IMG/VR virus record: IMGVR_UViG_3300033143_004249
Location: 1 to 39,106 of that record
DNA length: 39,106 nucleotides
Strand: one strand, 5' to 3'
Source of the DNA: a virus
Shown: positions 24,362-38,046 of the stretch, piece by piece
How the letters are laid out: the number at the start of each line of letters is the position of its first letter
Position numbering within the stretch: position 1 is the stretch's first letter
Program-made: the position numbers and the translations under genes
Notes under the pieces: model-generated
What the model saw: the letters and a program-made list of their open reading frames with translations, nothing else
Told to the model about the DNA's origin: nothing
The model's database searches: none

Positions 24362-24606
24362 TATTCTCAGCCGACATATTCGAGCATTCCGAAGCGCTGA
24401 ACCAGAAGCGGAAGGTCGCTCATGCCACTGTAGAGCTGGATGATGGGGGAAGCCTGCACTGCGCCTCTTTGTATTACATCACGTTCAAGAACAATCATGG
24501 AAAGGAGCAGAGCGCCTTGGTCTACGATTACAATATGGCGAATGGAGATCCATGGGAACTTCTCCGAGTGGCAATGAATCAATGCCGGGCAGAGCATAGT
24601 GGATGA
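24358..24606 (+). CDS. Hypothetical small protein
   Basis: 82 aa, alpha/beta small domain (VAHATVELDDGGSLHCASLYYITF; NMANGDPWELLRVAMNQC). No recognised family. ATG overlaps the primase stop (ATGA) and its stop overlaps the start of the next HNH gene by 8 nt. Position in the replication operon is the only functional hint. Confidence 0.55.
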   Translation: MIFSADIFEHSEALNQKRKVAHATVELDDGGSLHCASLYYITFKNNHGKEQSALVYDYNMANGDPWELLRVAMNQCRAEHSG

Positions 24607-24925
24607 TACTAAAGAAGCCTTTGAAGAGCGGATCATGCCGCTCACAGAGACCGGTTGTTGGATTTGGCTGGGTGCAGCTTCAACACGGAAGTGTGGAGCA
24701 ACTTCATACGGTAATGTCTGGGTGAATGGTATTTCGTACCGAGTACATCGATACGCCTATGAACTATACATCGGGCCAATTCCTCCTGGGAAGAAGTTAT
24801 TACATAGTTGTGATCACCCCTGGTGTACTAATCCACAACACCTTACTCCCGGGACACAACAACAGAACATTGATGACATGATGCGGAAGGGGCGACATGG
24901 TTCAAGGCGAGCTCATGCACCGTGA
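24599..24925 (+). CDS. HNH homing-type endonuclease
   Basis: 108 aa, GTG start at 24599. HNH core: LLHSCDHPWCTNPQHLTPG with H69, N78 and H81, followed by QQQNIDDM (N90). Preceded by a Cys-containing small DNA-binding region (ETGCWIWLGA, YGNVWVNGISYRVHRYAYELY). This fits the HNH_3 homing endonuclease family seen in phage genomes. Its last 29 nt overlap the start of the helicase gene. It is probably a selfish or nicking endonuclease inserted in the operon rather than a replication enzyme. Confidence 0.85.
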   Translation: MDDTKEAFEERIMPLTETGCWIWLGAASTRKCGATSYGNVWVNGISYRVHRYAYELYIGPIPPGKKLLHSCDHPWCTNPQHLTPGTQQQNIDDMMRKGRHGSRRAHAP

Positions 24926-26454: not shown

Positions 26455-26982
26455 ATGAAAACATTCGTCATTAACATTAACCCCAAGCACACGAAGCTGG
26501 TAGCAGCTTATGAAACTGTACACGAAGCTGAACAGCATGTCCTGGACGCCAAGCGCGATAAGGATTTCCTGGTAGCTGCATCCTGCGAAGAGGACCTACA
26601 TAACAGGCTTTCTTTGGCTACCATGAGCGAGCTGTACAATAGCACGCAGCCTGAAGACAAGCAGATCAAACACTTCAGCGATAAGACGTCCGGTGCGAAG
26701 CGGACTATGGCAGCCCTGCACGAAGGCAAGAAAACCACCAAGAAATCCGGTGGCAAAGTAGGTCGCCAGACTTACATCAGGCAGCGCCTGGAAGCTGGCA
26801 AGCCTTTGACAATTCAGGTCCTGGTTAAAGAGCTGATTGAAAAAGGGTACGAAACCGATGAAAAGAAGGCTCGGGGCAACTTGCTTCTTGCTGTCTCAAT
26901 TCTCGGTAATGCTAAAAAGCAGAAGGAGCCACTGCATGTCACCAGAACAGAAGACACCCTGCATCACGTCGCTGATTCTTGA
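26455..26982 (+). CDS. Conserved phage protein, possible DNA-binding
   Basis: 175 aa from ATG 26455. AAGGAG at 26443-26448 and the promoter upstream decide this start over ATG 26380. The N-terminal half has LATMSELYNSTQPEDKQIKHFSDKTSGAKR (key: ELYN, FSDK, AKR), a motif seen in phage and bacterial proteins of unclear function. The C-terminal part is basic with KKTTKKSGGKVGRQTYIRQRL and a winged-helix-like stretch (LTIQVLVKELIEKGYETDEKKARG). A nucleic-acid-binding role is plausible, not shown. First gene after the promoter of the modification operon. Confidence 0.6.
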   Translation: MKTFVININPKHTKLVAAYETVHEAEQHVLDAKRDKDFLVAASCEEDLHNRLSLATMSELYNSTQPEDKQIKHFSDKTSGAKRTMAALHEGKKTTKKSGGKVGRQTYIRQRLEAGKPLTIQVLVKELIEKGYETDEKKARGNLLLAVSILGNAKKQKEPLHVTRTEDTLHHVADS

Positions 26983-27376
26983 GGCATTCCACGAGGCAGG
27001 TCCCGCAGTATTCGCGGGGCCTGCTTCTTTGTTGGAACGCTATGAATCAGGTCGATTAGAAATTGAAGGTGAAGATTGGTGGTTGCGAAATCTGCAATAC
27101 ATCAAATATATTTTGAAGCCTTCCAACGAAGAGCTCATCGAATGCGCGGAGCTTTGCCAGCGGAAGAATCAAGCTTATGGCAGCCGAGGCATGTATGCCT
27201 TTGGAGCTAACGGCATCCGGATCCGTTCCGCGGATAAGCTTTATCGGTTCTTGAACCTGACTGAGCATGGCGGTGAGGAGCACGATGAATCTCTCCGGGA
27301 CTCGCTCCTAGATCTATTGAACTATGCAGCGCTGGCTGTCCTGGTTCTAAGGAAACAGCTTCCGTGTGCGGATTGA
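26936..27376 (+). CDS. DUF1599/Nmad1-like nucleotide-modification protein
   Basis: 146 aa from ATG 26936, with AAGGAG at 26923-26928, 7 nt upstream. Residues ~70-140 show the DUF1599 (nucleotide modification associated domain 1) pattern: ECAELCQRKNQAYGSRGMYAFG, then GIRIRSADKLYRFLNL, and ESLRDSLLDLLNYAALAVLVL. The all-helical fold of MazG/dCTPase relatives is expected. Family members often lie next to DNA modification enzymes; the role is not proven biochemically. Here the gene is followed directly (13-nt overlap) by the asparagine-synthase-like enzyme, which fits that association. Confidence 0.78.
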   Translation: MSPEQKTPCITSLILEAFHEAGPAVFAGPASLLERYESGRLEIEGEDWWLRNLQYIKYILKPSNEELIECAELCQRKNQAYGSRGMYAFGANGIRIRSADKLYRFLNLTEHGGEEHDESLRDSLLDLLNYAALAVLVLRKQLPCAD

Positions 27377-28725
27377 ACCTCACCCTGGATGGTGACATCC
27401 AACAAATGAACTGGGCAATCCAGCATCGGGGCATACGCAGTTCAATCGCAGAGCATGGTCCCTGGAAGCTGGGCCATGTTCGCCTGCCAATCAATGAGCT
27501 CTCTGAATCCAGTGATCAGCCAATTCAACAAGACGGCTGGAGCTTTTTATTTGTCGGGGAGTTCTTTGATTGGAAGAAGTTTGATCCGTATGCCACTTGC
27601 GATACTCATGTCCTGGTTGGTGAGTGGCTGCGGCGAGTTTGGGAGGGTGAGAATCCAACCAACCTCTTCAAGGACATTGATTGGATGGGAGCTTTCATTG
27701 CTATTGATCCCGAGGACTGTGCCCATATCATCCAGGACTACTTAGCACAGAAGCCTCTCTATATTCACGAGGCATCCTGCACCATCTCTTCTGAAATTCG
27801 GGGCGTCATGGCTGGGCATGTGAATCATCCGTGGCCCGCCAATGATTTCTACCTGGGAAGCGTGGCCAAATTTGGTTATCATCCCGGCCCGGACACCATG
27901 ATCCAAGGCATCCAAAAGATGCCCCACGCCACTTACACCACCATTGATCCCGGTGATTCCAATGATCACACCATCCGACGAAGCTCCAAAGGCACTCTGC
28001 GACCTCGCCCCGGGAACATCCGGAAGCTCCTGGAAGAATCCATGAAGAAGCGACTCATCTCAGACCAACCCCTTGCCATGCTGGTGAGCGGCGGCCTGGA
28101 CTCAAGCATTGTCTACAAGCTCACGGAGCAGGCAGGCATGTTAGACCAGGTCAAAGTCTTCCACTGCCAAAACGGTGAAGAGCAATGGTTGGACGAGCTG
28201 GGCGTAAAAAATACGCAAATGTTGGAATGCCAGCAGGTCAAGATCGAAGACGCTATTTGGCTGAATGAAGGGCCAGTGGATCTTGGCTCTCTCCTGCCGC
28301 AGATTGCCTTAGCAAGGGCCATGAGTGGCTCACCAGTAGTTTTGACCGGCGATGGTGCTGATGAGCTCTTCGGTGGATATAGGAGGATGGCAGAATACGA
28401 CGCACAGCTTTCCGATATATTCCAGGAATTGGTCTACTATCATCTGCCCCGATTGGACAAGATCCCCATGAGCCACACCACGGAATTGCGAACGCCTTTC
28501 CTGGCCCGGCCAGTAATCGAAGCGGCGCTGGCTTTGCCTTATGCCGAGCGCATAGAGAAGCGGGCACTCAAAGCAGCCTTCCAGGATTTGATCCCGGAGA
28601 CCATTTTGAATAGGCCTAAGCAGCCACTGAAATCTGCCCGAGTCCTGTTCCAGCCAATGGAGTGGCGGATGCAGCTTATTGACGAAACAAGGAGAATGAT
28701 ACAAAATGAAATGCGAGACCTTTGA
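27364..28725 (+). CDS. Asparagine-synthase-like amidotransferase
   Basis: 453 aa. GTG start gives M-C-G-L, leaving Cys2 as the N-terminal nucleophile of class II glutamine amidotransferase domains (Ntn fold), with HRG at 21-23 and GEFFDW near 65-70. The second domain has the PP-loop LVSGGLDSS (S242, D246) and LTGDGADELFGGY (~328-340), i.e. ATP-dependent activation of a carboxylate for amide transfer. The catalytic residues look intact. Size is slightly shorter than bacterial AsnB (~510-550). In this operon, next to base-modification enzymes, the natural substrate may be a carboxyl on a modified base or nucleotide; this is an inference. Free asparagine synthesis is the alternative. Confidence 0.88.
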   Translation: MCGLNLTLDGDIQQMNWAIQHRGIRSSIAEHGPWKLGHVRLPINELSESSDQPIQQDGWSFLFVGEFFDWKKFDPYATCDTHVLVGEWLRRVWEGENPTNLFKDIDWMGAFIAIDPEDCAHIIQDYLAQKPLYIHEASCTISSEIRGVMAGHVNHPWPANDFYLGSVAKFGYHPGPDTMIQGIQKMPHATYTTIDPGDSNDHTIRRSSKGTLRPRPGNIRKLLEESMKKRLISDQPLAMLVSGGLDSSIVYKLTEQAGMLDQVKVFHCQNGEEQWLDELGVKNTQMLECQQVKIEDAIWLNEGPVDLGSLLPQIALARAMSGSPVVLTGDGADELFGGYRRMAEYDAQLSDIFQELVYYHLPRLDKIPMSHTTELRTPFLARPVIEAALALPYAERIEKRALKAAFQDLIPETILNRPKQPLKSARVLFQPMEWRMQLIDETRRMIQNEMRDL

Positions 28726-29278
28726 CGAGCTCTTCCGCCTGCAGATGGCGGTGATTCGAAAATACGACCCAATAGAGAACGCAAATGGCCTGCTACAAAC
28801 TCCCATGGTGCCCGTGGCCTTATCCTGCAGGTTCGGCCAGGCAAGGATAAAGGATTTTGCCTGGCGCATCACTGAGGAGCTTATGGAAGCCCGCCTGGAA
28901 CTAACCCGATTGGATCGAAGTGATGCCGCCCGGGAAGAGGTGATCGATGCCCTGCACTTCATGATCGAGCTCTGCATTCTTGCTGATGTGGAACCGACTG
29001 CCCCGATCCAATTCATCAAGCAGCGCCGCCGGAGCACGGACGAAGCGATTATGGCCGTGATTTACCACCTGGGAATGGCTTGCAACGAGCTGAAGAATCG
29101 ACCCTGGAAGCAGACACAAACCGAAACAGATGAGTCCGATTTCCGGGGCTGGATTCAAGCGGCACTTACTGACCTGGTGCTCCTTATGGACTCCGTCGGA
29201 ATTGCACGCGAAGAGATCTTGGACCACTACACCAAGAAAAACAAAGTAGTAATGAAAAGACCCGAGGAGGGCTACTAA
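28706..29278 (+). CDS. All-alpha NTP pyrophosphatase (dUTPase/dCTPase-like)
   Basis: 190 aa. The pattern FDELFRLQMAVIRKYDPIE at the start and RFGQARIKDFAWRITEELMEA followed by EEVIDALHFMIELC matches the dimeric dUTPase/MazG-like superfamily, with metal ligands E57, E58, E61 and E78, D81 (EExxE...ExxD). Such enzymes hydrolyse dUTP, or dCTP in T4 (gp56 is a distant relative). In a phage with a dCMP-hydroxymethylase-like enzyme, removal of dCTP (to keep unmodified C out) would make sense and fits the position. It overlaps the amidotransferase stop by 20 nt. The substrate cannot be told from sequence. Confidence 0.8.
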   Translation: MKCETFDELFRLQMAVIRKYDPIENANGLLQTPMVPVALSCRFGQARIKDFAWRITEELMEARLELTRLDRSDAAREEVIDALHFMIELCILADVEPTAPIQFIKQRRRSTDEAIMAVIYHLGMACNELKNRPWKQTQTETDESDFRGWIQAALTDLVLLMDSVGIAREEILDHYTKKNKVVMKRPEEGY

Positions 29279-30534
29279 TGAAAGCGATTGGAATAACATG
29301 CGGAATTGGATCCATGCTGCAAGGCGCAAAGGCAGCCGGATTCGACGTCATAGGCAATATCGAATGGCGTAAATATTACCACAAGCGGGACACCGAAGGC
29401 AGGAACACCTTCCGAGAGAATTATCCCGGGGCATTCTTATCGCTCTCCATTGACGACGTTGATGTGGAAGCGCTGCGAGGCACCATCGATCTTGCCATGG
29501 GCCACCCTGAGTGTGGCAAGTACAGCCAGATGAATGTTTACAATAAGGGCTACGCTGAAGGCTTAAAGGATCCCGGTGACATTCCCCTATTCTGTGAGAT
29601 GGTGGACGCACTTCAACCGCGCTTCTTTGTTATGGATGATCTGCCTAAGAGCTTGGGCGCTTTCACCATGGAAGACTATGCCCGCATGATGCCGGGCTAC
29701 GACCTATATCCGGAATGGATCTCCAACTACCACTACGGCAACTGCCAAAAGAATCGCCGGCGCTTATTCATGATCGGGGCGCTGAAGAGCGAGGAGTTCG
29801 TATTCCGTCCAGGTGAGTTCATGCACGACATCGCAATCAAAGATGTGATCGGTGACTTGCTGGATACTGCGGGCGATGGAATGAATGGCCACAACGTGCA
29901 TGTCCTGGATGAAAACTGCGGCAAGGGCAAGAGCTGCCTGGAACTGGACCGCAAGGAAACATGGCGAACTGTGCAGAAGCAGTTTCTAGACGGTATCCGG
30001 GAAGGCGACCGCCTTTTCTATTGGGCCAAGGATGGCGCCCGAAAGCCGCGCATTGGATTTGGCACAGGCTACTGGAACGCGCATTCCCATGTCCTTGATG
30101 GTGGCTCCGCTGCATTGCATCCGATTCACAAGATTCCATTGACTGTGCGAGAGCGCGCAAGGATCCAGGGCTTCGCTGATGACTTCCTATTCTATGGCAT
30201 CAAGACTGATGAAGAAGGCAAGTGGAATATTGAGAAGAATAGCGACCTGGTGAAGCAGACCGGGAAGGCTATGCCAATCCAATTCTGCACCTATGCCGCC
30301 TTTTTGGTTGCTACCCATCTTGGCAAGGCCTTCATGCCTAAGGAGATGATCACTGGGAAGCGCTGTGCGAAGGACAACCCGGAAATCGATGCAGCCAAGT
30401 TCTGGTTCTGCGACAACATTGGTTATGCCGATCAAGAAGGCGCTTGCCAAGCTTGCTGGCTCCGGACGCAATGCAAGAAGCTCCACGATCAAATAGATCT
30501 ACCAGAAACGGAGGTGGAAGATGCCACGGTGTGA
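29278..30534 (+). CDS. Divergent C5-cytosine-methyltransferase-like protein
   Basis: 418 aa. SAM motif I GITCGIGSMLQGAKAAGFDV (residues 5-24) with IEW at 28-30, motif IV GHPECGKYS (75-83) where C79 aligns with the catalytic Cys of PCQ, motif VIII NCQKNRRRLFMIG, and motif IX LTVRERARIQGF. The motif VI glutamate (ENV) is replaced by DDL: FFVMDDLPKSLG (120-122). A Cys-rich C-terminal tail (residues ~363-405, CDN...CQACW...QC) is additional. It may therefore be a methyltransferase of altered chemistry or one using a modified donor or substrate. It sits between the pyrophosphatase and the hydroxymethylase genes. Confidence 0.85.
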   Translation: MKAIGITCGIGSMLQGAKAAGFDVIGNIEWRKYYHKRDTEGRNTFRENYPGAFLSLSIDDVDVEALRGTIDLAMGHPECGKYSQMNVYNKGYAEGLKDPGDIPLFCEMVDALQPRFFVMDDLPKSLGAFTMEDYARMMPGYDLYPEWISNYHYGNCQKNRRRLFMIGALKSEEFVFRPGEFMHDIAIKDVIGDLLDTAGDGMNGHNVHVLDENCGKGKSCLELDRKETWRTVQKQFLDGIREGDRLFYWAKDGARKPRIGFGTGYWNAHSHVLDGGSAALHPIHKIPLTVRERARIQGFADDFLFYGIKTDEEGKWNIEKNSDLVKQTGKAMPIQFCTYAAFLVATHLGKAFMPKEMITGKRCAKDNPEIDAAKFWFCDNIGYADQEGACQACWLRTQCKKLHDQIDLPETEVEDATV

Positions 30535-30832
30535 TGCGTTAGTATCCTCTGGGATGGGCTGGCGCGCGAATCGATGCAGCCACCCAGGTAAGGTTGAAGT
30601 CGATGGGAAGCATTTCTGCGGCATCCATAATCCGAATAAGTTGCCAAGCAAGTCACAGCAACGATCGGAGCTTATCAAGGCACAAAGAAGAAACCGGCGG
30701 GAGTTCGAATCGGATGCGATCAAGCTGGTTCGTGAACTGGCTAAAGAGAATCATCCAAGGGCGCACCTCTTGGTTGATGCGGACCTGATGGCCAATAACT
30801 ATATCAAGCAAAAACTGGAGGATCTAGCATGA
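30521..30832 (+). CDS. Small putative zinc-finger protein
   Basis: 103 aa. The N-terminal 40 residues contain a Cys/His cluster (PRCDALV, ANRCSHPG, DGKHFCGIH) typical of a small zinc-binding domain found in phage proteins, followed by a basic helical C-terminal half (KSQQRSELIKAQRRNRREFE). RBS GGAGG precedes ATG 30521. Overlaps the methyltransferase-like stop by 14 nt and the next start by ATGA (30829-30832). Probably nucleic-acid-binding; the specific function is unknown. Confidence 0.6.
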   Translation: MPRCDALVSSGMGWRANRCSHPGKVEVDGKHFCGIHNPNKLPSKSQQRSELIKAQRRNRREFESDAIKLVRELAKENHPRAHLLVDADLMANNYIKQKLEDLA

Positions 30833-31617
30833 AAATCTACCCTGATTTCCCGGCCGTAATTCAGGCCACTAGTGATAAGATCCGGACGCAGGCTTATGAC
30901 GTGCACACGGACAAATGGCAGGGCTTCGACATTGCTGATCGTCCGGAAGCCGCCATGAAAGAGATAATGAATTGGAACTTCCAGGTGCCGCTTGGTCACG
31001 AATCGCTGATGCTTTATGCAGAGCAGATTCATCCGAACATGCCCTGGGCGAATGATCACTTCCATGAGCGTGTGGCGGGCGAACCGGTTAATCCAGGGGA
31101 AACCTGGTTGACCTGGCCTTGGGCAAACAAGGCGGATGAGTCTCGATGCTTCCCAGGTGGAAAGTTCAGCCACACATACATGGAGCGCTATTGGCCAAAG
31201 AACAAGCCGGAAGACAGCGCCTCGCCAATGTGGGGACACCGATTCAAGTATGGTGATTTGATGGACGTGGTGAACTTGCTGGAAGATCAGCCGGAAACGC
31301 GCCAGGCATATTTGCCCATCTTCTTCCCGGAGGATACTGGAGCGCTGCACGGAAATCGGGTGCCCTGCACATTGGGCTACTTCTTCATGATGCGCCACGG
31401 GTATCTGCATATTCACTATCCGATCCGCTCATGCGATTTCTACCGGCATTTCCGGGATGACTTATATCTCACCACGCGCCTCTTGCTATGGGTGCTGGAC
31501 GAGCTCCGTCAGCGGGATGATGGTTGGCATGCTGTGAAGCCTGGATTCTTCTCCATGTGGATTGGCAGCTTGCACCTATTCATCAATGACTACAACAGGC
31601 TCTATGGCAATGAATAG
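30829..31617 (+). CDS. dCMP hydroxymethylase-like enzyme (TS fold)
   Basis: 262 aa, thymidylate synthase fold. Catalytic Cys180 in RVPCTLGY, R158 in PETRQAY, phosphate motif IRSCDF (200-204), and GSLHLF (246-251) with H249. The substrate-specificity residue, Asn177 in E. coli TS (FNIAS), aligns with Asp211 in HFRDDLYLT. In T4 dCMP hydroxymethylase the same block reads GFRNDYAWQ, also with Asp. Asp at this place selects dCMP over dUMP. So the product is predicted to be 5-hydroxymethyl-dCMP. No N-terminal TS-like extras. ATGA overlap with the previous gene. dTMP supply by this enzyme is unlikely because ThyX is present. Confidence 0.8.
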   Translation: MKIYPDFPAVIQATSDKIRTQAYDVHTDKWQGFDIADRPEAAMKEIMNWNFQVPLGHESLMLYAEQIHPNMPWANDHFHERVAGEPVNPGETWLTWPWANKADESRCFPGGKFSHTYMERYWPKNKPEDSASPMWGHRFKYGDLMDVVNLLEDQPETRQAYLPIFFPEDTGALHGNRVPCTLGYFFMMRHGYLHIHYPIRSCDFYRHFRDDLYLTTRLLLWVLDELRQRDDGWHAVKPGFFSMWIGSLHLFINDYNRLYGNE

Positions 31618-32059
31618 GCCGAACCATATAGCGTACTTTCTGGGCATGGCGGAGTTGGTTGCTACTCGCGGAACATGCGCCAGAAGGGCCGTGGGATGCG
31701 TTCTAACGAACATTCGTGGTCACGTGCTTGCAACAGGGTTCAACGGGGTGGCCAGTGGCTTAGAACACTGCACGGATAAACCCTGCCCCGGGGCCAAATG
31801 CGCCTCGGGTGAGGGCCTGGAACTCTGTGAAGCAATCCACGCCGAGCAGAACGCTCTCCTGCAATGCCATGATGTGCAGACGATCGAGGCGTGCTATTGC
31901 ACAACTGCACCCTGCATCACCTGCACAAAGCTCTTGCTGAATACAAGCTGTCAAGTGATCTGGTTCTTGGAGGATTACCCTCAAGCAGCGGCAGCCAAAA
32001 AACTATGGATAAGCGCTGGGAGGATCTGGGGCAATGCAGCAGAGTCTATTCTCGACTGA
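31604..32059 (+). CDS. dCMP deaminase
   Basis: 151 aa, ATG 31604 (31610 is an alternative, giving MNRP). Zinc-dependent cytidine/dCMP deaminase family: H79-A80-E81 in IHAEQNALLQ and P103-C104-I105-T106-C107 in APCITCTKLL, plus the N-terminal RGTCARRAVGCVL. Additional Cys residues (C56, C61, C66) may hold a second zinc as in T4 dCMP deaminase. It converts dCMP to dUMP for ThyX. In a phage with dCMP hydroxymethylase it stands at the branch between hydroxymethyl-C and T. Overlaps the hydroxymethylase stop by 14 nt and the polymerase start by 26 nt. Confidence 0.86.
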   Translation: MAMNRPNHIAYFLGMAELVATRGTCARRAVGCVLTNIRGHVLATGFNGVASGLEHCTDKPCPGAKCASGEGLELCEAIHAEQNALLQCHDVQTIEACYCTTAPCITCTKLLLNTSCQVIWFLEDYPQAAAAKKLWISAGRIWGNAAESILD

Positions 32060-33971
32060 ACAAATAGCACCAATACCGAAGACGGGCTGGACAGCGCCTG
32101 CGAGCTTCCCGAACCTGGAAGCGGCAAAGACCCTTTGCATTGATGTGGAAACCTGGGATCCCAACCTAAAGGAGAAGGGTCCTGGGTGGGCTACCGGCGA
32201 TGGCCACCTCTGCGGAATTGCCGTGGGCACGGATGATGGCCACAGATGGTATTTCCCTATGCGCCATGAAATTGGTGGTGGCAACATGGATCCCGCCACG
32301 GTGCTTCGCTGGGCCAAAAGGGAATTCAGCCGTCCAGGACAATTGAAGGTCGGTGCCAATCTGCTATATGATGTGGGCTGGCTCTCGACTGAAGGCGTGC
32401 ATGTGGAAGGCCCTTTCTTTGATGTGCAATGGGCGGAAGCGCTCCTGGACGAGCATCGATACAGATACTCCCTGGATAGCATTGCCAAAGATCGGGGCAC
32501 CGGTGGCAAAGTATCCGACGCGCTGTATCGCTGGTGTTCTGCTGCGTATGGTGGAAAGCCCACGGCTCGAGGCCAGGGCGGAAACATCCACCGAGCGCCG
32601 GCTTCCCTGGTTGGCCCGTATGCCGAGGGCGATGTGGATCAGCCACTCCGAATTATGGAACAGCAGATCCAGGAGCTGGATGAGCACGAGCTCACAAAGC
32701 TCTGTGACCTGGAACATCGCCTTCTGCCAATGCTGCATGCCATGCGAGCACGAGGCGCATTGATCCGTAGTGACTGGCAGAAGCTGCGTGACCAGGTGCA
32801 GAGTAAGATTATCATCCCGCCAGGCGTGGACATCTGGTCCCGGGATAGCCTCGCGCACTATTGCCGAGGGAAGGATATAGCTTATCCGATGACCGCCTCC
32901 AAACGGCCCGTGCCGAGCTTTGTTGGGCCTTGGCTAGAAGTGCATCTCCCGGAGATTGCGGCCGCCAGGAAATACGACAAAGCCGCCGGCACCTTCTTTG
33001 ATGGCTATATGGGCAAAGCGGTAAAGAACAAAATTCATTGCCAATTTCATCCGCTGCGTTCCGATGCTGGCGGCACAGTGTCCGGGCGCTTCTCAAGCTC
33101 GGATCCCAATCTACAGAACATTCCGTCCAGGGACAAGGAATTGGCGCCACTTATTCGCGGTCTATTCATCCCAGAAGAGGGCGACCTCTGGTGTAAGCAG
33201 GACTACTCACAAATTGAATATCGCTTGCTGGCTCACTTTGCTCGAGGCACGGGAGCCAACGATGTCCGGGAGAAATATGTCCTGGATCCGAAAACCGATT
33301 TCCATCAAATGGTCTCTGAGATGAGTGGCCTGGAACGCAAGCCCGCCAAGATCCTGAACTTCGGAATGATATATGGGCAGGGTGTAGCAACAACTGCGGC
33401 CACCATGGGCTGTACTGTGTACGAGGCCGAGCGCTTCCGGGAGCAGTACTTTGAGAAGGCACCATTTGTCAAGCACACATTTGACTGGGTGGCGCGAGTG
33501 GCTGGCCAGCGTGGTTATCTGCGCTCCATCGGTGGGAGACTGCATAGATTTGTCCACTGGGAGCCACGTGATTGGGGTCTGCGTGATGACTTCAAATTGA
33601 CCACGGATCGAGATGGCTTGGAAGCTCGGATTCGGGAGCTACAGGCCAAGGCGCGAGAAGCGGGAACCAAAGTCCCCGGCGGCGGCACGGTCCGGGCCAA
33701 GACTCATAAGGCGCTCAATTCCCTACTGCAAGGCAGCGCTGCCGACATAATGAAGATCGCTATGGTTGATGTATGGGAGAGCGGCGTCTGCGACGTCCTG
33801 GGAGCGCCAGTGCTTACTGTGCACGATGAATTGGATTGGTCGGTACCGGACACCCAGGAGGGCAGGGAAGCCATTCGGGAATCCCAGCACATCATGGAGA
33901 ACTGCGTCAAGCTGGATGTGCCTCTGTTGGTTGATACGGAGTGGGGATCGAATTGGGCCAACGTGAAATAG
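32034..33971 (+). CDS. DNA polymerase, family A, with 3'-5' exonuclease
   Basis: 645 aa. Exonuclease motifs: CIDVET (D37, E39), NLLYDVGW and YAEGDVDQ (residues ~196-203). Polymerase motif A DYSQIEYR (D390), motif B R435-xxx-K439-xxx-F443-xxx-Y447 (KPAKILNFGMIYGQ), motif C VHDELD (H597, D598, E599). All catalytic residues present, so a proofreading replicase like T7 gp5 or other phage Pol I types. Phe443 aligns with E. coli F762. An extra basic segment of ~40 residues (~515-555) sits before the last motifs. ATG overlaps the dCMP deaminase stop by 26 nt; last gene of this operon. Confidence 0.95.
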   Translation: MQQSLFSTEQIAPIPKTGWTAPASFPNLEAAKTLCIDVETWDPNLKEKGPGWATGDGHLCGIAVGTDDGHRWYFPMRHEIGGGNMDPATVLRWAKREFSRPGQLKVGANLLYDVGWLSTEGVHVEGPFFDVQWAEALLDEHRYRYSLDSIAKDRGTGGKVSDALYRWCSAAYGGKPTARGQGGNIHRAPASLVGPYAEGDVDQPLRIMEQQIQELDEHELTKLCDLEHRLLPMLHAMRARGALIRSDWQKLRDQVQSKIIIPPGVDIWSRDSLAHYCRGKDIAYPMTASKRPVPSFVGPWLEVHLPEIAAARKYDKAAGTFFDGYMGKAVKNKIHCQFHPLRSDAGGTVSGRFSSSDPNLQNIPSRDKELAPLIRGLFIPEEGDLWCKQDYSQIEYRLLAHFARGTGANDVREKYVLDPKTDFHQMVSEMSGLERKPAKILNFGMIYGQGVATTAATMGCTVYEAERFREQYFEKAPFVKHTFDWVARVAGQRGYLRSIGGRLHRFVHWEPRDWGLRDDFKLTTDRDGLEARIRELQAKAREAGTKVPGGGTVRAKTHKALNSLLQGSAADIMKIAMVDVWESGVCDVLGAPVLTVHDELDWSVPDTQEGREAIRESQHIMENCVKLDVPLLVDTEWGSNWANVK

Positions 33972-37144: not shown

Positions 37145-37429
37145 ATGAGTAAAGAAGGGATATGGAAAGAAATCAAAGAAGAGCGAGGGCGCCAGGATGC
37201 CCAATGGGGTGGGCCGGACCATGATGATACGCACGCCCTTTGGAACTGGATAATTTATATTCGAGGGCATAATAAGGCCGCCGGGAAGCTGATGCTCCAG
37301 GAAAGGCCTGTTCATGATTTCGCCCCGGCTGCCGTAGAGCAATTTCGGAAGCAGATGGTCCGAGTAGCCGCTTTGGCCGTAGCGGCCATTGAATCAGTTG
37401 ATCGTAGAAGACTAAAGGAGAGAAAATGA
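37145..37429 (+). CDS. Conserved phage protein with RQDAQWGG-HDD motif
   Basis: 94 aa, RBS GAGGAGG. Starts with a helix EIKEERGRQDAQWGGPDHDDTHALWNW (key: RQxxQWGG, HDD), then a C-terminal helix RVAALAVAAIESVDRR. The motif is familiar from many small phage proteins of unknown role, possibly MazG/nucleotide-related. It overlaps ThyX by ATGA (37426-37429), which fits a nucleotide metabolism link. No function claimed. Confidence 0.6.
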   Translation: MSKEGIWKEIKEERGRQDAQWGGPDHDDTHALWNWIIYIRGHNKAAGKLMLQERPVHDFAPAAVEQFRKQMVRVAALAVAAIESVDRRRLKERK

Positions 37430-38046
37430 CAACTTACGCAACATTAATGAACCACACGCCACTGCAGATCTGCTCACATGCGGTCCGCACGTGCTGGCAG
37501 TCACACGCTAAGGCAGATGACGGTGGTGAGGCTGATAGGGCGCTCATTCTCAAGGTGGGCAACATCTTCAAGCATGCCTCCACCCTGGAGCACTTGAACT
37601 ACACCTTCTATCTGGAGAACATCAGCAGAGCGCTCCTGCAGGAGCTGGCACGGCACCGCATAGCCAGCCTCAGTGTTAAGTCAACCAGGTACACGCTCAA
37701 GGAGCTTAAGGACGAGGATGATGTGCTAGAGCAGCAAGGGCTGATCGAAAAGTACTGTGTGATGACGGGCCACCCTGATGTGGACTTCTATGTAGGCCAG
37801 GCATTGGCTAATCTTCAAACCCTGGTCAAATCAGGTGTGCCGAATGACCAATCCAAGTTCGCTCTGCCTGATGCGTATAAGACTGAGCTCACCTGGACCA
37901 TCAATGCCCGCTCACTGCAGAACTTCCTGACCTTGCGTACGTCCAAGGCTGCAATGTGGGAGATACGGCGCCTGGCTTATGCCATCTTTGATGCACTGCC
38001 TGAGGATCACAAATACCTGTTCGAGGACTTTGTGCATGAGCAGTAA
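37426..38046 (+). CDS. thyX: Flavin-dependent thymidylate synthase
   Basis: 206 aa. ThyX signature R76-H77-R78-x-x-S81 and S86-x-R88-Y89 (RHRIASLSVKSTRYT). Uses FAD and methylene-tetrahydrofolate to convert dUMP to dTMP. The preceding region EHLNYTFYLENISRALLQEL and the C-terminal LRTSKAAMWEIRRLA are also typical. The length is a little short but complete. It is separate from the TS-fold gene at 30829, so this phage has its own dTMP supply. Overlaps the previous (ATGA) and next (11 nt) genes. Confidence 0.95.
   Translation: MTTYATLMNHTPLQICSHAVRTCWQSHAKADDGGEADRALILKVGNIFKHASTLEHLNYTFYLENISRALLQELARHRIASLSVKSTRYTLKELKDEDDVLEQQGLIEKYCVMTGHPDVDFYVGQALANLQTLVKSGVPNDQSKFALPDAYKTELTWTINARSLQNFLTLRTSKAAMWEIRRLAYAIFDALPEDHKYLFEDFVHEQ

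Follow-up and report, generated by a model that had tools for sequence, protein, structure and literature searches.

The 39,106-base viral record IMGVR_UViG_3300033143_004249, analysed over its full length (the window), carries a row of genes that most likely belongs to a recurring phage module for cytosine hypermodification. To judge from family matches, active-site residues and gene neighbourhoods, the chances are about even that the target is 5-hydroxymethylcytosine (5hmC): an enzyme resembling C5-cytosine methyltransferases (C5-MTases) would act on 5hmC in DNA, and an asparagine-synthetase-like (AsnB-like) enzyme would carry out an amidation. The module appears akin in logic to CmoX/CmoY of Synechococcus phage S-B43, but it encodes no CmoA and is linked to a dCMP hydroxymethylase-type enzyme (HMase). 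Eight same-strand open reading frames (ORFs) form the row, the last encoding a DNA polymerase, and neighbouring ORFs overlap by 1–26 nt. An earlier, sequence-only reading had described seven overlapping genes followed by the polymerase, and all eight ORFs were found at the starts it gave. Two of these, 26936 and 31604, are internal ATGs; a mechanical ORF caller begins the same ORFs at TTG 26837 and TTG 31562. The module proteins were scanned against Pfam, PHROG and NCBIfam, with family support for six of the seven module genes (one of them weak) and none for the zinc-finger-like gene. The features are as follows.

26936..27376, plus strand: Nmad1/DUF1599-like helical protein, weak assignment (PF07659 E 0.0012, below cut-off; phrog_1485 2e-14)
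27364..28725, plus strand: AsnB-like glutamine amidotransferase, N-terminal nucleophile (Ntn) glutaminase plus PP-loop synthetase (PF00733 Asn_synthase 1.7e-36, with GATase_6)
28706..29278, plus strand: all-alpha nucleoside triphosphate (NTP) pyrophosphatase, dUTPase_2/MazG type, presumed dCTP-removing (PF08761 5.9e-8; phrog_12184 7e-22)
29278..30534, plus strand: C5-MTase-like enzyme with remodelled pocket (HPEC, DDL, K330 at M.HhaI Asn304) and C-terminal 4-Cys motif (PF00145 DNA_methylase 5.7e-18)
30521..30832, plus strand: small Cys/His-rich protein, 103 aa, accessory (Cys/His spacing only)
30829..31617, plus strand: thymidylate synthase (TS)-family, HMase-like enzyme (TS fold weak in Pfam, 0.0096; PHROG thymidylate synthase 2.8e-27)
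31604..32059, plus strand: dCMP deaminase (PF00383 1.1e-13; phrog_174 2e-29)
32034..33971, plus strand: family A DNA polymerase (PolA), presumed to incorporate the modified nucleotide (PF00476 8.7e-55)
37426..38046, plus strand: ThyX flavin-dependent thymidylate synthase (PF02511 1.3e-42; TIGR02170 162 bits, above the cut-off of 87.9)

The labels that the sequence-only reading had given to the amidotransferase, pyrophosphatase, C5-MTase-like, deaminase and polymerase genes agree with these matches. Its Nmad1 label found matches in both PF07659 and phrog_1485, the former under the cut-off, and the assignment is weak. The zinc-finger label, a pattern reading of Cys/His spacing, found no support in the scans: the 103-aa protein has no family match in Pfam, PHROG or NCBIfam and no match in any other record scanned (L001, which does match, is a fragment of the window), and its gene is outside the conserved core of the module.

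The gene row is more than a chance arrangement, because the same order recurs in unrelated viral contigs at protein identities of roughly 30–60%. The order in L002 is kinase, AsnB-like enzyme, pyrophosphatase, C5-MTase-like enzyme, N6/N4-type methyltransferase, HMase, dCMP deaminase and PolA; its proteins are 52% (C5-MTase-like), 41% (AsnB-like), 34% (HMase) and 32% (pyrophosphatase) identical to those of the window. The sequence-only reading had suggested looking for this neighbourhood in other phages, and profile scans found 49 distinct loci of the C5-MTase-like gene, nearly all in metagenomic phage contigs. Thirty-two are well flanked, having 3.5 kb or more of sequence to each side. The HMase lies no more than 9 kb from the C5-MTase-like gene in 31 of these 32; in the remaining one (L192) it is at another place in the record. 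Of the 32, 28 have the AsnB-like gene, 27 a pyrophosphatase of one type or the other and 27 a dCMP deaminase. Ordinary C5-MTase controls from the same viral scan (L217–L243) have an HMase in 0 of 27 cases. In the reverse direction, among the 80 nearest loci of the HMase, the C5-MTase-like gene turns up in 3. Since the HMase accompanies all 32 C5-MTase-like genes and the converse holds in so few loci, the C5-MTase-like enzyme goes with the HMase and not the reverse; the HMase is the common gene, used with other partners too. Four loci (L204, L205, L209 and L244) combine the C5-MTase-like gene with an HMase close by, in a gene order otherwise much alike, and have no AsnB-like gene in the whole record, although such records may be incomplete. 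AsnB-like loci number 81, window included; about 60 have an HMase and 6 more are cut by contig ends. No cultured phage with a close C5-MTase-like protein (best about 26% identity) or AsnB-like protein (best about 27%) was found, so there is no known nucleoside chemistry to borrow.

About 15 of the 81 AsnB-like loci form one clade amid T4-like tail genes, and no HMase was found in those partial contigs. These loci (L053, L057, L060, L065 and about 11 more) hold T4-like tail or structural genes and a small P-loop protein.

The C5-MTase-like enzyme shares with M.HhaI and M.HaeIII the fold (Z 25–27), the catalytic Cys and Arg163/Arg165; it differs from them in motifs I, IV, VI and X, in the cofactor pocket and in an additional C-terminal 4-Cys motif. 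Its AlphaFold2 (AF2) model (pLDDT 90.2) matches M.HaeIII at Z 27.2 and CmoX (8YF3) at Z 25.4. Residues of 27 family members were compared with those of 80 ordinary C5-MTases in M.HhaI numbering, with a wider set of 51. All 27 members show Gly78 to His, Gln82 to Gly, Glu119 to Asp, Val121 to Leu and Asn304 to Lys, and neither the ENV motif VI Glu nor the motif X Asn is kept; family-wide shifts at Gly78, Glu119, Val121, Asn304 and other positions were not seen in the 80 ordinary enzymes. Pro80 is replaced by Glu or Asp and Phe18 by Thr or Ile, and Asp60 is mostly lost. The catalytic Cys81 is kept, likewise Ser85, Arg163 and Arg165, and motif IV of the window protein reads HPEC, its Glu being E78 and its catalytic Cys C79. 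In the wider set residue 304 is basic in 50 of 51 (Lys 49, Arg 1, Asn 1), and in the alignment with CmoX the window Lys330 falls on CmoX Arg350. Shortening Q82 and N304 of M.HhaI admits bulky transfer groups (PMC10666283), and the N304 equivalent is an Arg that binds carboxy-S-adenosylmethionine (carboxy-SAM) in CmoX and a Lys in engineered M.MpeI (PMC12783734). All AsnB-bearing loci that are readable at residue 80, which precedes the catalytic Cys, have an acid there (Glu or Asp); the four loci without AsnB have Lys or Tyr at this position and Phe or Tyr at position 18. On the tree, two independent contrasts with support bear on this pairing of an acidic residue 80 with AsnB, and each goes the expected way. 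The window protein ends in C-x11-C-x2-C-x5-C (residues 378–399), and most family members have C-x11-C-x2-C-x(4-5)-C at the C-terminus, with a spacing that resembles metal or iron-sulphur sites.

The AF2 two-domain model of the AsnB-like protein (pLDDT 93.6) is nearest to TsnB9 (Z 37.2) and EcAsnB (Z 37.0). A Met-Cys start is found in 84 of 85 family members and the PP-loop (SGGxDS) is intact; the oxyanion Asn74 position is Val in 50 of 85 and Asn in 23. The aspartate pocket is changed throughout. Asp384, equivalent to human Asp400, which lines the aspartate pocket (PMC6748925), is His in 85 of 85 members; Glu348 is Asp in all 85, and the TIRASTPM segment is replaced by a DLGSxxPQ-like one. These pocket residues suggest a substrate other than aspartate. 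The window protein scores 161 bits against TIGR01536, the NCBIfam asparagine synthase model, whose cut-off is 267. An ordinary asparagine synthetase was rejected on both grounds, the changed pocket and the low score. Residues and gene linkage together support the earlier proposal that the amidotransferase and the C5-MTase-like protein would act on the base. Of the reference sequences, which were M.HhaI and the E. coli enzymes AsnB and TS, the AsnB segments match chain 1CT9, and the key TS and M.HhaI residues fell at the expected numbers.

At the nucleotide level, the window TS-family protein retains Cys146, Arg166, Ser167 and Asp169 (E. coli TS numbering), and its PDB profile matches include, alongside thymidylate synthases, CMP and dCMP hydroxymethylases. 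Position 177, Asn in E. coli TS, is Asp in the window protein and in every aligned relative. Asp177 marks dCMP rather than dUMP as substrate, and the residues that set a hydroxymethyl or methyl product in the family are not clear (PMC8670742). The enzyme is very likely a dCMP and not a dUMP enzyme, because Asp stands at the selecting position and a separate ThyX is encoded by the phage, which supplies dTMP and so leaves the TS-like enzyme free for dCMP; the genomic setting suggests that its product is hydroxymethylated. The pyrophosphatase fits by family as a presumed dCTP remover. A dCMP-selective TS-family enzyme, an all-alpha NTP pyrophosphatase, a dCMP deaminase and a phage polymerase in one operon recall the T4 5hmC pathway (gp42, dCTPase, dCMP deaminase). 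To this extent the T4-like plan of the sequence-only reading is supported; a kinase for 5-hydroxymethyl-dCMP was not recognized in the window. Unlike T4, the window has a family A polymerase and ThyX, and no glucosyltransferase was recognized among the module genes, C5-MTase-like and AsnB-like genes being present instead. The Nmad1-like gene sits in a slot mostly filled by a deoxynucleoside monophosphate kinase-like gene in relatives: among the well-flanked loci the kinase-like gene occurs in 15, the Nmad1-like gene in 4 and both in none (19 with either).

The proposed mechanism would proceed in four steps. (i) The TS-family enzyme, as its residues suggest, would make 5-hydroxymethyl-dCMP. (ii) By family, the NTP pyrophosphatase would remove dCTP, the deaminase would turn dCMP into dUMP for ThyX, and PolA would incorporate 5hmC. 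(iii) The C5-MTase-like enzyme, in keeping with the strict gene linkage, would work on 5hmC in DNA with its Cys as nucleophile at C6, and the enlarged charged pocket would let it change or lengthen the substituent at 5-CH2 by means of a group or donor that carries a carboxylate. (iv) The AsnB-like enzyme, using its own glutaminase, would convert the carboxylate to an amide, either while it is part of the donor or once it is on the DNA. That a carboxylate is first installed and then amidated is plausible by analogy, because S-B43 offers a precedent (PMC12783734). An engineered C5-MTase couples thiols to 5hmC in vitro (PMC7176277), and therefore the fold can use 5hmC as an electrophile. It is tentatively proposed that the present family has switched from methylating C to using 5hmC in DNA in this way: Cys would add to C6, the 5-hydroxyl would leave, and a carboxylate- or amide-bearing nucleophile would be attached with the help of the AsnB-like enzyme, a reaction that would parallel in nature the one known in vitro.

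Several points weigh against 5hmC amidation by this pair of enzymes. Sequence cannot separate hydroxymethylation from methylation by the TS-family enzyme, and no 5-hydroxymethyl-dCMP kinase was recognized in the window. Many phage loci hold AsnB-like and HMase genes without the C5-MTase-like gene, and the carboxylate substrate of the AsnB-like enzyme there is unexplained. Phe18 and Asp60 of the cofactor pocket are changed in AsnB-bearing members, so that a cofactor other than SAM and carboxy-SAM may be used. The correlation between acidic residue 80 and AsnB falls short of significance (sign test p 0.5), with two supported contrasts and four loci that lack AsnB.

The sequence-only reading knew of no described system with exactly this set of genes. 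That view needs amending, as the CmoA/CmoX/CmoY system of S-B43 is close in logic, albeit without a reported hydroxymethylase (PMC12783734). A doubtful but serious alternative is a CmoX/CmoY-like route on plain C, in which host carboxy-SAM would give 5-carboxymethylcytosine at a short motif, the AsnB-like enzyme would amidate this to 5-carbamoylmethylcytosine, and the HMase would give 5hmC at other cytosines. Both systems place a C5-MTase-fold enzyme beside an asparagine-synthetase-related PP-loop enzyme and a pyrophosphatase (the S-B43 row is pyrophosphatase, CmoA, CmoY, CmoX), and in both the residue equivalent to M.HhaI Asn304 is basic (CmoX Arg350, window Lys330) and the one at 82 is small. 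Host CmoA sufficed in E. coli, and the ligases of a second reported cluster do have a glutaminase domain (PMC12783734). However, the CmoX family filter is Arg350 plus the SPPC motif (PMC12783734), and the window has Lys in place of that Arg and HPEC/DDL where CmoX has SPPC/ENV, with the cofactor-site Phe18 and Asp60 changed. The window AsnB-like protein has a full glutaminase domain, whereas CmoY, of 271 aa, has none and gives only weak matches to the window-type AsnB family. CmoA (TIGR00740) has no match in the window and none above the cut-off in 50 module records, where host supply is possible; nor was a match found in two bacterial bins holding relatives (Myxococcaceae and Saprospirales), whose contigs may be misbinned phage, one being equal in length to an IMG/VR contig. 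Strict CmoX/CmoY membership was rejected on motif IV and CmoA. The route would also leave the strict HMase linkage unexplained and would find no free C5 if 5hmC fully replaces C. Given this linkage, the missing CmoA and the altered cofactor site, the window C5-MTase-like enzyme would do something other than CmoX.

Direct action of the AsnB-like enzyme on the HMase product is unlikely. ATP would activate the 5-CH2OH or a base carbonyl and ammonia would be added, for example to 5-aminomethylcytosine, leaving the C5-MTase-like enzyme as a later, optional decorator. The AsnB-like gene does adjoin the HMase in many loci without the C5-MTase-like gene, and amination of base carbonyls is known among PP-loop relatives, for instance in GMP synthetase. 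Against this, to our knowledge no PP-loop enzyme adenylates an alcohol, the C5-MTase-like gene occurs with the HMase without AsnB and so does not need it, and the pairing of acidic residue 80 with AsnB is not directly explained. Plain T4-like 5hmC DNA, with an orphan methylase of the ordinary kind and a metabolic asparagine synthetase, is very unlikely. Both proteins do come from common superfamilies in which ordinary enzymes are numerous, but the family-wide C5-MTase shifts, the His for Asp384, the AsnB score and the strict operon linkage all speak against it.

Amidation of 5hmC by the C5-MTase-like and AsnB-like pair may also be set beside the 5hmC carbamoyltransferase phages found by MetaGPA (PMC8670742), which likewise have an Asp177 dCMP-type TS homologue and an enzyme decorating 5hmC with an amide-like group; the decorator there is a carbamoyltransferase, in place of which the window has an AsnB-like enzyme and a C5-MTase-like enzyme. 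A literature search returned no paper in which hydroxymethylase, AsnB-like and C5-MTase genes are brought together (the survey of Iyer et al. 2013 was outside its scope). The module would unite two strategies already described, 5hmC made at the nucleotide level and C5-MTase/amide-ligase chemistry, and suggests a widespread class of phage hypermodification that searches keyed to CmoA, SPPC or Arg350 would miss. The product would bear on the escape of phage DNA from restriction and CRISPR, and the enzymes could serve for 5hmC labelling.

Variant forms of the C5-MTase-like gene were also observed. In L008:8948-11110 a long in-frame, intein-like insertion lies exactly at the motif IV catalytic Cys, beginning Cys-Ile-Val-Ser-Gly-Asp and ending Lys-Asn ahead of the next Cys. 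The gene is fused in frame to an N6_N4_Mtase-type protein in L007:9992-12247 and L026:11275-13581, the latter protein being encoded by a separate neighbour gene in many loci. Tandem paralogues, two each, occur in L003:8806-11468 and L005:4422-6829 and may differ in sequence specificity. L216:7923-10347 encodes two C5-MTases with Lys at 304 and an ordinary ENV motif near two TS-family genes, possibly an intermediate type.

The window is without a terminal repeat. PADLOC gave generic methyltransferase and deaminase matches only, and palindrome avoidance is mild and uninformative. The terminase shares 55% identity with its counterpart in Pseudomonas phages phi2 and TC7, and the window encodes, besides ThyX, helicases and an archaeo-eukaryotic primase (AEP)-like gene. 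An HNH endonuclease-like gene (24599-24925) lies immediately 5' of the UvrD-type helicase gene at 24897.

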